Positions 3,564 to 10,487 of a stretch of DNA of 37,138 nucleotides are shown one piece after another. The notes beneath the pieces are model-generated. The model worked only from the letters and a program-made list of their open reading frames with translations. It was not told the origin of the DNA and did no database searches. The number at the start of each line of letters is the position of its first letter. Position 1 is the first letter of the stretch. The stretch lies in assembly GCA_003003615.1 (NCBI GenBank), contig PVWD01000029.1:1-37138 (forward strand), in the 5' to 3' direction. This DNA comes from a filamentous cyanobacterium CCP2 (GTDB taxonomy: Bacteria > Cyanobacteriota > Cyanobacteriia > Elainellales > Elainellaceae). Both the position numbers and the translations under genes were made by a program.

Positions 3564-4174
3564 GATGTCAAACCCGAAGGATGAGGGAGGTAGATGGGTT
3601 CGATCTCAACATTGATTTTACCTGGGCGATCGACTTCTCCGAATATCAGTCAGAGGATGAAAAGAATCGATAGAGCAGATTGAGTGAATGATGAGATGAA
3701 TTAAGAAGATGAGCAGAATAGATATAAAACAGCACCGTTCAATCTTTAGGTTTCTGTTGAGTTAGACCTGCAAAAAGATTACTTTCGGTAGCAATTAAGT
3801 TGAATGTTTACACAATATCAACCTTTTGCGATCGATGCGGCACCGAAACCAATGTATCCTGCTTGCACCTTCATGCTATCTAGAATGACATTTCTGAGGG
3901 CATAAGTTCTGAGTCATTTAGCGGATTCCGCATACGCGGTTTCTTGTAATGTCAGATACAGATTAGCAACAAACGGAAAGGTTGAAACTAATGTGAGCAT
4001 TTCATGAAAAAGCTGTAAATTTGCCGAGAATTCAGCAATATTTGATGGACGATCGCCCAAATTCTTCCTACGGTGGAAATCGGCTTGCACGAAATTCAGC
4101 AATCAGCTTGTTGCCGCCTCACCTCCCTATCTCTGTACCGATAGGGAAATCATGCTAAGGAAAATCCAAAAAGT
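3564..4174. other. 611-bp divergent intergenic region
   Basis: No supported gene. It separates the minus-strand GTPase cassette from the plus-strand PPC gene and should hold both promoters. A possible minus-strand promoter is listed separately. A minus-strand 62-codon frame starting with TTG at 4102 has no recognisable motif and no ribosome site. Confidence 0.6.
3715..3742 (-). promoter_or_regulatory. possible sigma70-type promoter of the GTPase cassette
   Basis: On the minus strand TTGAAC (3742-3737) and TATTCT (3720-3715) are separated by 16 bases, about 150 bases before the ATG of the DUF4388 gene. Both hexamers match consensus at four of six positions or better. The region is AT-rich, so chance matches are likely. 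Confidence 0.3.
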
Positions 4175-5389
4175 ATGTTAAGTAAATCTGGTAACACGCT
4201 CAGCACTGCCCGTAATCTAAGACAATTGAATGGAGCCAGAACGATTCGTGACTTTGTTGGTCAATCTGATAAATTTGATTTCTACCGCTTCACCCTGGGA
4301 GTCCGCAGCAGTTTTTCAACTTCGGTAAATCGTCTCAAATCTGCCGTTAATGTGCAAATTTTGAACGATCGAGGACGTGTAATTACTCGTTTTAACCAGC
4401 CCAAAGCTGCAAGGGGCAGAACAGTTACACGAGAACTTGAAGCCGGACGCTATTTTCTCCGCATTGCCCGCCGCAAAGGAGATACGCGCTATCAGTTAAG
4501 ACTGGCTTCATTTCCCACTCCGCTTCCTGTTCCGGCTCCTATCCCTGCTCCTGTTCCGGCTCCTATCCCTGCTCCTATTCCTACTCCTATTCCTACTCCT
4601 ATTCCCGCTCCAACCCCAACTCCACCTCCGCCACGGCCAATGGGTAACACGCTCAGCACAGCGTTTAACATTGGCACCCTGTCTGGAACTGCAACTCGGC
4701 AAGGCGTTGTGAACCCTGTTGATAATGTTGATATTTATCGATTTACCCTTAATCAAAATGCGAACCTGGAAGCCCGAATTAATGGCTCTTCAGCCGCAGC
4801 CCAGCTAGATTTAATTTTTGATGCAAACCGAAATGGTTTAATCGATGATGGTGAAATTCTTCGGACAGGTTCCAGTAACTTATCGTCCAGGAGCTTTACC
4901 GAGGCACTGCCAGCCGGAAATTACTTTGTCCGAGTCAGCCCCAGGAGTAGCAGTGCTTCTACAAGCTATGATTTTGCACTGGTGGCAACCCCAACTCCGG
5001 GAAATGTATCACCGCTTCCTGGGAATACATTACCAACTGCATTTAATGTTGGAACCTTAAATCAGCGTCCTGCCAGCACATTCGTTGCACGAGATTATGT
5101 CGGTGCGCTTGACGATCGAGATTTTTATCGGTTCAGTCTCAACCAAAACACCAATCTAGAGGTCAGAATTGCCAGTTCATCAGCAGCGGCTCAATCCAGC
5201 CTGATTTTTGATGCGAATGGGAATGGTTTGATTGATCAGGGAGAAGTTCTTCAGATTGGTTCCAGTAGTTTATCGTCCCGAAGCTTTACCAGAGCGTTAT
5301 CGGCTGGAACATATTTTGTTCAAGTTAGTCCCAGAAGTAGAAACACTTCGATGAATTACGAATTAACGCTGGTGGCGAATGCCGTTTGA
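4175..5389 (+). CDS. three-repeat PPC (pre-peptidase C-terminal) domain protein
   Basis: A 404-residue protein made almost wholly of PPC-like beta-sandwich repeats. Repeat 1 covers ~residues 4-110, then a Pro-rich linker (~114-153), repeat 2 (~156-272) and repeat 3 (~282-404). Each begins GNTLSTA/GNTLPTA, has an F-Y/D-x-Y-R-F-x-L core and ends with AG-x-Y-F-x-x-V. Repeats 2 and 3 are much closer to each other than to repeat 1 and share LIFDAN-x-NGLID-x-GE (from D216 and D346), an EF-hand/dockerin-like calcium loop that repeat 1 lacks. PPC domains normally hang on secreted proteases; here there is no protease and no signal peptide at the chosen ATG. Export by a C-terminal type I signal is possible but not visible. 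Function unknown; adhesive or structural role is a guess. Confidence 0.75.
   Translation: MLSKSGNTLSTARNLRQLNGARTIRDFVGQSDKFDFYRFTLGVRSSFSTSVNRLKSAVNVQILNDRGRVITRFNQPKAARGRTVTRELEAGRYFLRIARRKGDTRYQLRLASFPTPLPVPAPIPAPVPAPIPAPIPTPIPTPIPAPTPTPPPPRPMGNTLSTAFNIGTLSGTATRQGVVNPVDNVDIYRFTLNQNANLEARINGSSAAAQLDLIFDANRNGLIDDGEILRTGSSNLSSRSFTEALPAGNYFVRVSPRSSSASTSYDFALVATPTPGNVSPLPGNTLPTAFNVGTLNQRPASTFVARDYVGALDDRDFYRFSLNQNTNLEVRIASSSAAAQSSLIFDANGNGLIDQGEVLQIGSSSLSSRSFTRALSAGTYFVQVSPRSRNTSMNYELTLVANAV
4513..4640 (+). repeat. Pro-rich coding repeat (linker of PPC protein)
   Basis: In-frame repeats coding PVPAPIPA and PIPTPIPT units. A 24-base unit is repeated nearly twice at the start, then 12-base units follow. 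It separates PPC repeat 1 from repeats 2-3 and is a likely site of length variation. Confidence 0.8.
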
Positions 5390-7505: not shown

Positions 7506-7556
7506 AAAAAATTTGACAGGCTTGATTAAGGTAAGGATTGAGTCTGTCAATTTTTT
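7506..7556 (+). terminator. rho-independent-type terminator of the amylase gene
   Basis: AAAAATTTGACAG (7507-7519) pairs with CTGTCAATTTTTT (7544-7556) over a ~24-base loop, with a T-run on the 3' side. It lies 30 bases after the amylase stop. Confidence 0.6.
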
Positions 7557-7841: not shown

Positions 7842-10487
7842 ATGCCCCCTTTATCGCGCTTCTACCGTTTCTTACACTCACTGACTGCGCGCTGCCGTAT
7901 GGCTGTACACGGTCACACATTTCCCCGATCGCTACGTTTGGCACTTAGTGTCATTCTTGGCTTTGGGATCGCTGTTCTCTGTTGGACAAATCAAGTCAAG
8001 GCGGCAGAAACGGTTTTATTGCAATACCGTGATCTCAGATTGTCCGTTTCCCTGGCTGAATTCCAAACCTTTGCAGCAGACGGTAACGCTTCCCCAGCCC
8101 TACAAGACTTCCTCCAGCAGACCGAAGAAGACCCGGAAGCCGTTCGTCAATGGTTAACTACAGAAATTTCACCCGGTTTTAGCTCAGTTCTGCCGCAAGA
8201 ATTCATTTTGCTGCAAATTAGCAAAACTTTGGGCGAACCGTTGGAGCGGGAAGACTTGGGAGCATTAGGAACCGCTTTACGCGCTGCCTTTGAGAATGAT
8301 CAAGCATTCTCTGTCATGGAAGTGCTAGAGCAATATCCTGGGCCGAATGTCCGTCTAACTTTGAACCGTTTGGAGCAGGCTTATACCGATATCAATTTAG
8401 TTGTGACCCGGCTGGAACCTGTTCTCAATGTGGCGAAGCAACTCCTACCTGAATTAGTTTGTGACTGCGATCGAGCCGATTCTGCTTCATCTCCCCTCCC
8501 AAGTCCTGAATTATCCAGCCAAAAAGCCACCCTCAACCAGCCGAAAGCCTCGATCGCCTATACTCAAGCCCAAGCAGCCCTCCATCCCCTCTTCAGCCCT
8601 GAAACCCGACTAGCAAGCCATTCCACCGTCGTTGCTGCTCAACCCAACACCACCCTCGCTGCATCGGCAACCCAACCCAACCTCAATCAGCAACTGGTCT
8701 TCACCTTCGGCCCCTTCCGTCCATCCATTTCGATCGCCGATCTAACCACCTTTGTGGAAACGGGGGAACTATCGCGAGGCTGGCGGTTTTACCTGAATGT
8801 GGCCAATATCGATCGCGAGGAACTGCGCCGTTCCCTGAGCCAGGAGGTTACAGTGAATGCTCAGTTTCTCGATCGTATGCTCAACTCGGTGCTGGGCGAG
8901 TACTTGCTGTATGAAGTCGGGCAGATTATTCAAACCCCCTCTGGTAAAGCCAATATTCAGGCATTGCGATCGGCCATTATCCTTTCCAGTATTGACGATA
9001 ATCGCTTTTCAACCCTAGAACTGCTTCAGCATTACCCCACTCAGCAAATTCAAATTAACGGAGTCCGTTTGGCCCGCATTGGCACAAACCTGTCGCGGAT
9101 TGCTTCTCCCGATGGGTTGTCAGATGCGGTGTCGAATCTGGAAGGATGGCTAGTGCAAATTCAGGCTTCCACTGCCGAAGATGTTTGCAACTGTGAAAAT
9201 ATTCCTGCGATCGATGCCACCACGCTTTCAGAAGTTCCAACGATTTCAGCCGCCACTGTATCGCAGTTTTTACCCCTAGGCTGGCAACCCGTTCCCTCTC
9301 ACCGAGTCGATCGCGGCATCATTAAAGTGGTTTGGCTCACCGGAACTCCCTATGAAATGGGCTACCAGCATGGACAACTCCTCCATGATGAAATTGCTTC
9401 GATCGGTGACAACGTGCTTCAGGTGGCGCGGTTTGCCGGAGAAGGATTTGCCCTGGGAAGACTTGCCTCCAAGCGTTCTTTCCCGGATATTGAGGAAGAA
9501 TGTCGAGGCTTATCTGATGCAACAAAAGACCTAGGAATTACGCTAGATACCTGCATGATGATGGCCTATGCAGATGTCTACCAGGAATTATTAGGGCACA
9601 CATTGCCAAATGAACTGTTTTGGAATGGATGTAACCAGTTTGTTGCAACCAATGAAGCGACGATTAGCAGACGGCTCTATCACGGGAGTAGTGTAGATAA
9701 TTCCACACCGATTCCCTATGTGATGAATAATCCCGTGATTTTTGTGCGACAGCCTACAAACGGTTTGCCTCATATTTTTGTCACCTATCCAGGAGTTGTT
9801 TGGCCGAACTCTGGCATGAACGTTGCAGGAATATCCTTAGGATTAGATACGGCACTTCCAAGAGATCCAGATGAACTTTCTCTGTATGGTAGAAGTAATG
9901 TGCAAATTATGGCGCAAATCCTAGAAACTGCCACCCAGTTTGAAGAAGCGCGTACCCTCATGGAAACTCAGCCTCGCGTTCGGGCCAACCTGATCATGAT
10001 TGCCGATGGCAAATCGAAACAGGCAGGCGTATTTGAATTTACAGGTCAAAATTTGGGAGTCAGAGAGCTACAGGAAAACGGCGTTCTTTACACCACTAAT
10101 CATTTCGTCCTGCCCGAAATGTACGAGAAGCAGCCCCTTCCACCAGACCCATCCAGCATTTCCCGATTCGATCGCTTTCAACAGTTAATGGAACCCGGAC
10201 ATCGGGATTCCCACTATGGGCAAATTACCCCAGAAGTCATGGCGACGATTTTACGCGATCGGGTGAACCCGTATACTGGGCAAGCCAGCCCCAAAGATCT
10301 GTTTGATGATGATGCTAGCCCCGGTGGAAATGGGGCCCTGCGTCAGGCAATTTTTGATCCAGAAGGACTGCGCCTGTGGATTGCCGCCGGATCGGCACCT
10401 GTGCCCGAAAATCCGTTTGTTTGCTTTTCAATGGGCGAATTGCTGGAATTTCCCAATGCCACCCCTTGCGAATCCCCGGAAATGTGA
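7842..10487 (+). CDS. exported protein: two DUF1400 domains fused to a C45-type Ntn acyltransferase/hydrolase
   Basis: 881 residues from the ATG at 7842. The frame is open back to a TTG at 7761, and the ATG at 7899 would give a neat signal peptide ending in QVKA before AETV, so 7899 is an equally good start. Counted from 7842, DUF1400 copies cover ~53-198 and ~285-428; each has a VSY/TFGPF-like strand, S-x-x-L/F-x-x-F and a helical end. They are joined by an Ala/Pro/Ser/Thr-rich linker. From ~491, VVWLTGTPYEMGYQHGQLL, the pair NGC-NQF (C597) and SGMNVAGISLG match the C45 family (acyl-CoA:6-aminopenicillanate acyltransferase-like), in which this Cys becomes the N-terminal nucleophile after self-cleavage. 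DUF1400 normally precedes an alpha/beta hydrolase, so this pairing is unusual. Likely a periplasmic amide or ester hydrolase; substrate unknown. Confidence 0.75.
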   Translation: MPPLSRFYRFLHSLTARCRMAVHGHTFPRSLRLALSVILGFGIAVLCWTNQVKAAETVLLQYRDLRLSVSLAEFQTFAADGNASPALQDFLQQTEEDPEAVRQWLTTEISPGFSSVLPQEFILLQISKTLGEPLEREDLGALGTALRAAFENDQAFSVMEVLEQYPGPNVRLTLNRLEQAYTDINLVVTRLEPVLNVAKQLLPELVCDCDRADSASSPLPSPELSSQKATLNQPKASIAYTQAQAALHPLFSPETRLASHSTVVAAQPNTTLAASATQPNLNQQLVFTFGPFRPSISIADLTTFVETGELSRGWRFYLNVANIDREELRRSLSQEVTVNAQFLDRMLNSVLGEYLLYEVGQIIQTPSGKANIQALRSAIILSSIDDNRFSTLELLQHYPTQQIQINGVRLARIGTNLSRIASPDGLSDAVSNLEGWLVQIQASTAEDVCNCENIPAIDATTLSEVPTISAATVSQFLPLGWQPVPSHRVDRGIIKVVWLTGTPYEMGYQHGQLLHDEIASIGDNVLQVARFAGEGFALGRLASKRSFPDIEEECRGLSDATKDLGITLDTCMMMAYADVYQELLGHTLPNELFWNGCNQFVATNEATISRRLYHGSSVDNSTPIPYVMNNPVIFVRQPTNGLPHIFVTYPGVVWPNSGMNVAGISLGLDTALPRDPDELSLYGRSNVQIMAQILETATQFEEARTLMETQPRVRANLIMIADGKSKQAGVFEFTGQNLGVRELQENGVLYTTNHFVLPEMYEKQPLPPDPSSISRFDRFQQLMEPGHRDSHYGQITPEVMATILRDRVNPYTGQASPKDLFDDDASPGGNGALRQAIFDPEGLRLWIAAGSAPVPENPFVCFSMGELLEFPNATPCESPEM

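Follow-up and report, generated by a model that had tools for sequence, protein, structure and literature searches.

A predicted exported C45-type Ntn hydrolase fused to two DUF1400 domains in a filamentous cyanobacterium, and a candidate partnership encoded in several layouts

Introduction

DUF1400 has been described as a domain that precedes the actual alpha/beta hydrolase domain (PMC11878206). In the gene described here, two copies of it stand in front of an enzyme of another fold. The domain is nearly universal in the cyanobacterial class concerned (184 of 186 listed genomes of that class contain it, against none of those listed from other classes), yet the literature searched, with subscription papers outside its scope, contained no tested function for it, and the same search found no paper joining 'peptidase C45' and 'cyanobacteria'. 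The arrangement occurs in the window, meaning the whole stretch of 37,138 nucleotides that was analysed. An initial annotation had read the gene as two DUF1400 domains fused to a C45-type self-processing hydrolase, and had taken DUF1400 for a portable export, lipid or pro-domain module that works with unrelated hydrolases. Here, the fused gene, its relatives and its separately encoded counterparts are described, and the possible roles of the DUF1400 pair are weighed.

Architecture of the fused gene

The open frame codes for 881 residues with no interruption and then a stop (Table 1). A Pfam-A search of the protein returned DUF1400 (two stretches, E 2.6e-56) and AAT (PF03417, E 1e-11), the latter in the C-terminal part with 45.4 bits (cut-off 23.2). 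Both DUF1400 domains lie above the curated PF07176 cut-off of 23.4 bits, and the NCBIfam profile NF040521 (C45_proenzyme) matched residues 500-844 with 133.2 bits (cut-off 85). The tandem DUF1400 domains, the C45-like Ntn hydrolase and the Cys expected at residue 597 were thus all borne out, the last standing in the motif NGCNQF and being Cys in 17/17 aligned homologues. The outcomes that the initial annotation had named as counting against it (no match to PF07176, no match to C45, no conserved Cys) were each checked, and the opposite was found every time. No alpha/beta hydrolase domain follows the DUF1400 domains in this protein; AAT/C45 is the sole match there and the fold is Ntn. The hairpin upstream is weak evidence for a terminator, because comparable hits are no commoner here than in shuffled sequence. 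A profile search of the source genome returned seven further DUF1400 domains beyond the two in the fused gene.

Table 1. Features of the fused gene and its upstream interval, in positions of the window.
Feature	Position	Strand	Basis
Terminator-like hairpin between the upstream alpha-amylase-like gene and the fused gene	7513..7550	+	15-pair stem and T run
Fused gene: signal segment, two DUF1400 domains and C45 Ntn hydrolase	7842..10487	+	Open frame, family matches, same architecture elsewhere
Signal-peptide-like N terminus: Arg-rich start, hydrophobic run LALSVILGFGIAVLCW, end VKAAE	7842..8006	+	Reading of the sequence, no dedicated predictor
DUF1400 domain 1 (PF07176), residues 54-172	8001..8357	+	70.1 bits, E 1.1e-18
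Cys-x-Cys motif 1, C207-D-C209	8460..8468	+	Both Cys invariant in 17 C45-linked DUF1400 pairs
Linker between the DUF1400 domains, low confidence, probably disordered	8469..8687	+	pLDDT <50 at residues 216-275
DUF1400 domain 2 (PF07176), residues 283-406	8688..9059	+	130.9 bits, E 1.6e-37
Cys-x-Cys motif 2, C449-N-C451	9186..9194	+	Both Cys invariant in 17 C45-linked DUF1400 pairs
C45 family Ntn hydrolase domain (isopenicillin N acyltransferase / acid ceramidase / NAAA fold)	9279..10484	+	NF040521 above cut-off; Z 37.2 to 2x1c
Predicted self-cleavage site Gly596-Cys597 with catalytic Cys	9627..9632	+	Cys in 17/17 homologues; alignment to beta-chain starts

Predicted fold and nucleophile of the C45 enzyme

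An AlphaFold2 model of the fused protein, built from 37 sequences (the window and related loci), had a mean pLDDT of 84.4 and a pTM of 0.77. Foldseek placed isopenicillin N acyltransferase (2x1c, E 6.3e-18) at the top of its matches, followed by acid ceramidase and NAAA. In VIA-align, model residues 494-870 superposed on 2x1c_A over 328 residues (Z 37.2, 2.5 A, 20% identity), and acid ceramidase and NAAA gave Z about 30 with 12-16% identity. Alignments to NAAA, acid ceramidase, bile salt hydrolases and penicillin V acylases, each taken as mature chains, mostly begin at model residue 597, which lies opposite residue 126 of NAAA and residue 143 of acid ceramidase, the starts of their beta-chains. 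The residue before the nucleophile is Gly in 15/17 homologues, and the remaining two carry an insertion immediately before the Cys. D619 is invariant in the same alignment, and by its spacing, with the alignment read by eye, it would be the counterpart of Asp162 of acid ceramidase; on the same footing, the equivalent of Arg159 of acid ceramidase appears to be Ser or Thr in the fused clade. Asp162 of acid ceramidase has been discussed (PMC5915598). Fungal isopenicillin N acyltransferase undergoes self-cleavage at the Gly102-Cys103 bond of its DGCTT motif (PMC2692852). It is very likely that the cyanobacterial enzyme is exported and self-cleaving, as predicted. An exported C45-type N-terminal-nucleophile amidase or acyltransferase would cut before Cys597, leaving this residue as the nucleophile, and by analogy with fold relatives that cut acyl amides its substrate probably contains an acyl-amide bond.

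The fusion in other genomes

The initial annotation had proposed counting this architecture in genomes, and the complete fusion was found in nine besides the source. Within the family of the source these are G011, G295, G300, G301, G303, G308, G316 (two copies) and G320, at 53-64% identity; outside it there is G438. Named records of the fusion (L071, L072, L074, L075 and L076), which partly duplicate the numbered genomes and were counted once, come from Leptolyngbyaceae cyanobacterium SL_7_1, Pegethrix bostrychoides, Elainella saxicola, Synechococcales cyanobacterium M55_K2018_004 and Elainella sp. Prado103. An artefact, or a fusion peculiar to one genome, is ruled out by these nine genomes with the full architecture. 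In G302, DUF1400 domain 1 lies in a separate, overlapping frame, and in G304 the fusion gene is interrupted by a contig end. The split into DUF1400 and DUF1400-C45 frames in L070/L047 may not be a real split gene; since the two frames overlap, it may be a draft-genome frameshift. In a tree of C45 domains, the fused members form one clade of eight with support 100/100.

Enzyme and DUF1400 pair in separate genes

Outside the fused clade, the same two components are encoded in three further ways: (i) the C45 gene stands alone with a DUF1400-pair gene next on the same strand, about 11 to 350 bases away (L078, L079, L080, L082, L083, L086, L087, L088, L089 and L091); (ii) the DUF1400-pair gene is divergent from the C45 gene (L077); or (iii) DUF1400 is absent nearby and the pair gene lies elsewhere in the genome, as for L081, L084 and L103 (pair genes G304/L151, G300/L149 and G302/L150, respectively) and for Adonisia turfae (G611, L085), where pair and enzyme are 1.6 Mb apart. 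Among the same-strand loci, L086 belongs to Leptolyngbya sp. Heron Island J, and L091 is from Lyngbya confervoides, where the record carrying both genes has a title that calls it an unlocalised plasmid. Since the separate genes stand in the opposite order to the fused domains, the simple loss of a stop codon did not create the fusion. In a tree of the pairs, all C45-linked pairs stand apart from stand-alone DUF1400 gene pairs (support 100/100), and L149, L150 and L151 group in one clade whose branching order matches that of the three C45 enzymes. Besides the enzyme and DUF1400, no third gene recurs around most C45 loci.

In the separate layouts, C45 enzyme and DUF1400 pair each carry an N-terminal signal-like segment, which makes an export role for the pair unlikely. 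Furthermore, the exported C45 relatives in Myxococcota and Bdellovibrionota have no DUF1400. Both observations speak against the export-module part of the initial annotation, and the latter also indicates that a DUF1400 partner is not required by every exported C45 enzyme. As for the pro-domain idea, its purely covalent version is insufficient, since in many cases the partner is encoded in trans, including at unlinked loci. The fused, neighbouring and distant layouts together suggest that exported hydrolases have a functional partner in the DUF1400 pair.

Co-occurrence and matching of partners

The sample for co-occurrence comprised 388 cyanobacterial genomes of the class, 22 of which contain the C45 enzyme. 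DUF1400 pairs were assigned to the C45-linked type at 430 bits or more, which gave 18 listed genomes and G304 (by L151); the enzyme is present in 19/19 of them. The next-best pairs scored 321-366 bits, each match spanning a stop codon, and the cases read at the DNA level (G294, G301 and G312) are stand-alone gene pairs. Three of the 22 C45 genomes (G292, G293 and G305) have no C45-type pair, and they form the lineage whose enzyme is without a signal peptide: in G293 and G305 a signal peptide is not possible because the frame begins a few residues ahead of the C45 domain, and in G292 there is a C45 gene fragment only. Enzymes with neither signal peptide nor partner (L090 at 3850-5136 (+), L054 and L055) have ~12 extra residues immediately before the catalytic Cys (GAGFSIGRSSPVAC).

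The probability of the co-occurrence by chance is 2e-29 if genomes are treated as independent, which they are not; the co-occurrence is weighted to one cyanobacterial family and the figures ignore phylogeny. Passive association, in which gene proximity and fusion have no functional meaning and co-occurrence only reflects common ancestry, would fit the concentration of module-bearing genomes in one family. We regard it as highly improbable, since three layouts and unlinked partners are kept in at least two lineages, the partner is absent together with the signal peptide, and the partner trees follow paralogues. Distances among enzymes and among partners are correlated (Mantel r 0.79, with 0/20,000 permutations as high). 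In two genomes that have a solo enzyme as well as a fused (or frame-split) one, r was 0.74 to 0.95 when enzymes were matched with their own partners and -0.41 to 0.19 when the partners were swapped. Partners are not exchanged between paralogues, and the partner trees track paralogues, not species.

The DUF1400 pair, its Cys-x-Cys motifs and other DUF1400 hosts

In the C45-linked pairs each DUF1400 domain ends in a helix followed by Cys-x-Cys, and the four Cys are invariant in 17 sequences. The motif is also present in most members of the stand-alone DUF1400 gene pairs. It was not found in single DUF1400 proteins or in two TamB-like hosts, and it follows DUF1400 in 0/10 DUF1400-alpha/beta hydrolases. 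Because of this distribution, the C45-linked pair belongs to the paired DUF1400 branch and not to the alpha/beta hydrolase branch. Disulfides or a metal site could form at these motifs and hold the two DUF1400 domains. Cys-x-Cys conservation and the separate-gene layouts are stronger evidence than the basis on which the initial annotation had drawn.

An AlphaFold model of the DUF1400 pair alone reached a pTM of 0.68. Searched as a two-domain whole with this modest-confidence model, no known fold was returned by Foldseek at E <0.3 or by VIA at Z >3.2, a negative that does not show a new fold given the quality and two-domain form of the query.

DUF1400 is joined to several hosts, namely PAF-AH/PETase-like alpha/beta hydrolases, an alpha/beta hydrolase with SBP_bac_3, and a TamB-like protein, and it also occurs alone or in adjacent gene pairs. 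The proposal that it is portable therefore stood, as did the claim that it accompanies hydrolases of unrelated folds (C45 Ntn versus PAF-AH/PETase-like alpha/beta hydrolases). Proteins of 838-955 residues in L195 (1496-4126, +), L196 (1561-4185, +), L197 (319-3183, -), L198 (706-3219, -) and L199 (274-2946, -) combine DUF1400, a PETase/PAF-AH-like alpha/beta hydrolase and a solute-binding-protein-like C-terminal part, the last recognised as SBP_bac_3 by Pfam in L195 and by eye in the others. A TamB-like protein with a C-terminal DUF1400 was seen in two related genomes (L079, 8677-12600 (-); L200, 1-2802 (+)). In the source genome, a single DUF1400 gene and a TamB-like gene are divergent on contig C20 (L006, 1429-1983 (-) and 2001-3371 (+)). 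A link to TamB as the general role of DUF1400 was rejected, because the evidence amounts to one divergent neighbour and one fusion lineage, and none of the other loci examined has a TamB-like frame. The source genome also has, on contig C30, a stand-alone DUF1400 pair with Cys-x-Cys (L004, 454-2026 (+)), directly followed by a frame that by eye resembles D-Ala-D-Ala ligase.

Proposed role of the DUF1400 pair

The explanation that we favour, at a probability of roughly 0.6, is that an exported, self-cleaving C45 enzyme works with a dedicated DUF1400-pair accessory subunit aiding its folding, maturation or stability. The pair would be the enzyme's own dedicated partner, fused to it here and in many relatives made as a separate exported protein from a neighbouring or distant gene. 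Most likely it would be a specific accessory subunit, docked on the enzyme, that helps it to fold, mature or remain active outside the cytoplasm. If the C45 part alone were fixed, a pTM of about 0.45 to 0.5 would be expected by our own estimate; the values for the whole protein and for the pair exceed what independent placement of the domains would be expected to give and therefore weakly suggest that the domains are in contact in the model.

A fixed contact of this kind would also suit a pair that acts as an inhibitor, be it a pro-region or a subunit, and whose removal or release would switch the enzyme on, and the N-terminal position in the fusion and the separable gene recall enzyme/inhibitor pairs. 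This is distinctly unlikely, because Ntn hydrolases of the family are already activated by self-cleavage before the Cys (PMC2692852) and DUF1400 is also found on a non-hydrolase host.

The main rival is a localisation module holding exported hydrolases at the membrane, cell wall or a lipid surface, with no part in folding or catalysis. Several non-cyanobacterial C45 relatives have lipoprotein-like N termini and Asp-rich linkers, so anchoring may be needed and DUF1400 could substitute for it; other hosts of the domain (lipase-like alpha/beta hydrolases, the TamB-like protein) fit lipid surroundings. However, a localisation module encoded by a separate gene would need to bind the enzyme anyway, and no lipid-binding fold was recognised by Foldseek or VIA for the pair model, a two-domain query of modest confidence. 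Anchoring is thus considered unlikely, and the accessory subunit is the role that we favour.

More broadly, DUF1400 might be a cyanobacterial partner family, its fold not yet solved, that acts in cis or in trans as an aid to several exported enzymes unrelated to one another. The C45 enzyme would then depend on the C45-linked type, a two-domain subunit held together by a disulfide or metal site of four Cys (2 x CxC). This extension is tentative and we hold it to be somewhat doubtful. C45 Ntn hydrolases and DUF1400 proteins are each known; the literature searched appears to contain no description of their partnership or of its several layouts. The series of fused, adjacent and unlinked genes makes the role of DUF1400 directly testable with one enzyme, as the separate-gene versions let the partner be omitted cleanly.

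Comparison with known systems

A close architectural comparison is with the DUF1400-alpha/beta hydrolases (L001, L002, L007, L195-L199), which are likewise exported hydrolases with an N-terminal DUF1400, but have one DUF1400 domain, an unrelated enzyme fold and no Cys-x-Cys. Stand-alone DUF1400 gene pairs share the two DUF1400 units, mostly Cys-x-Cys-ended, and come out closest to the C45-linked pairs in sequence searches, whereas they consist of two genes and have no C45 gene in the short flanks examined. The lipase-specific foldase (Lif) of Pseudomonas and Burkholderia is a dedicated partner encoded beside an exported hydrolase, its client being an alpha/beta hydrolase; to our knowledge it has no Cys-x-Cys, and the comparison is one of working likeness, not of relatedness.

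Among the enzymes, acid ceramidase (ASAH1) and NAAA are exported lipid amidases that resemble the window protein in fold and in the position of Cys597 at the start of the mature beta-chain, a likeness drawn from the fold match; we know of no DUF1400 in either. By eye, C45 relatives outside cyanobacteria (L092, L094, L096-L098 and L102) look lipoprotein-like, several with long Asp-rich linkers, and two archaeal frames of ~1012 residues (L107, 5725-8760 (+); L110, 5707-8745 (+)) each contain two C45-profile stretches. Isopenicillin N acyltransferase (2x1c; MEROPS C45, PF03417) shares the predicted fold and a Gly-Cys cleavage site, DGCTT in the fungal enzyme (PMC2692852) and NGCNQ in the window. 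The fungal enzyme is peroxisomal and has no DUF1400, whereas the window protein combines a signal-like segment with a DUF1400 pair.
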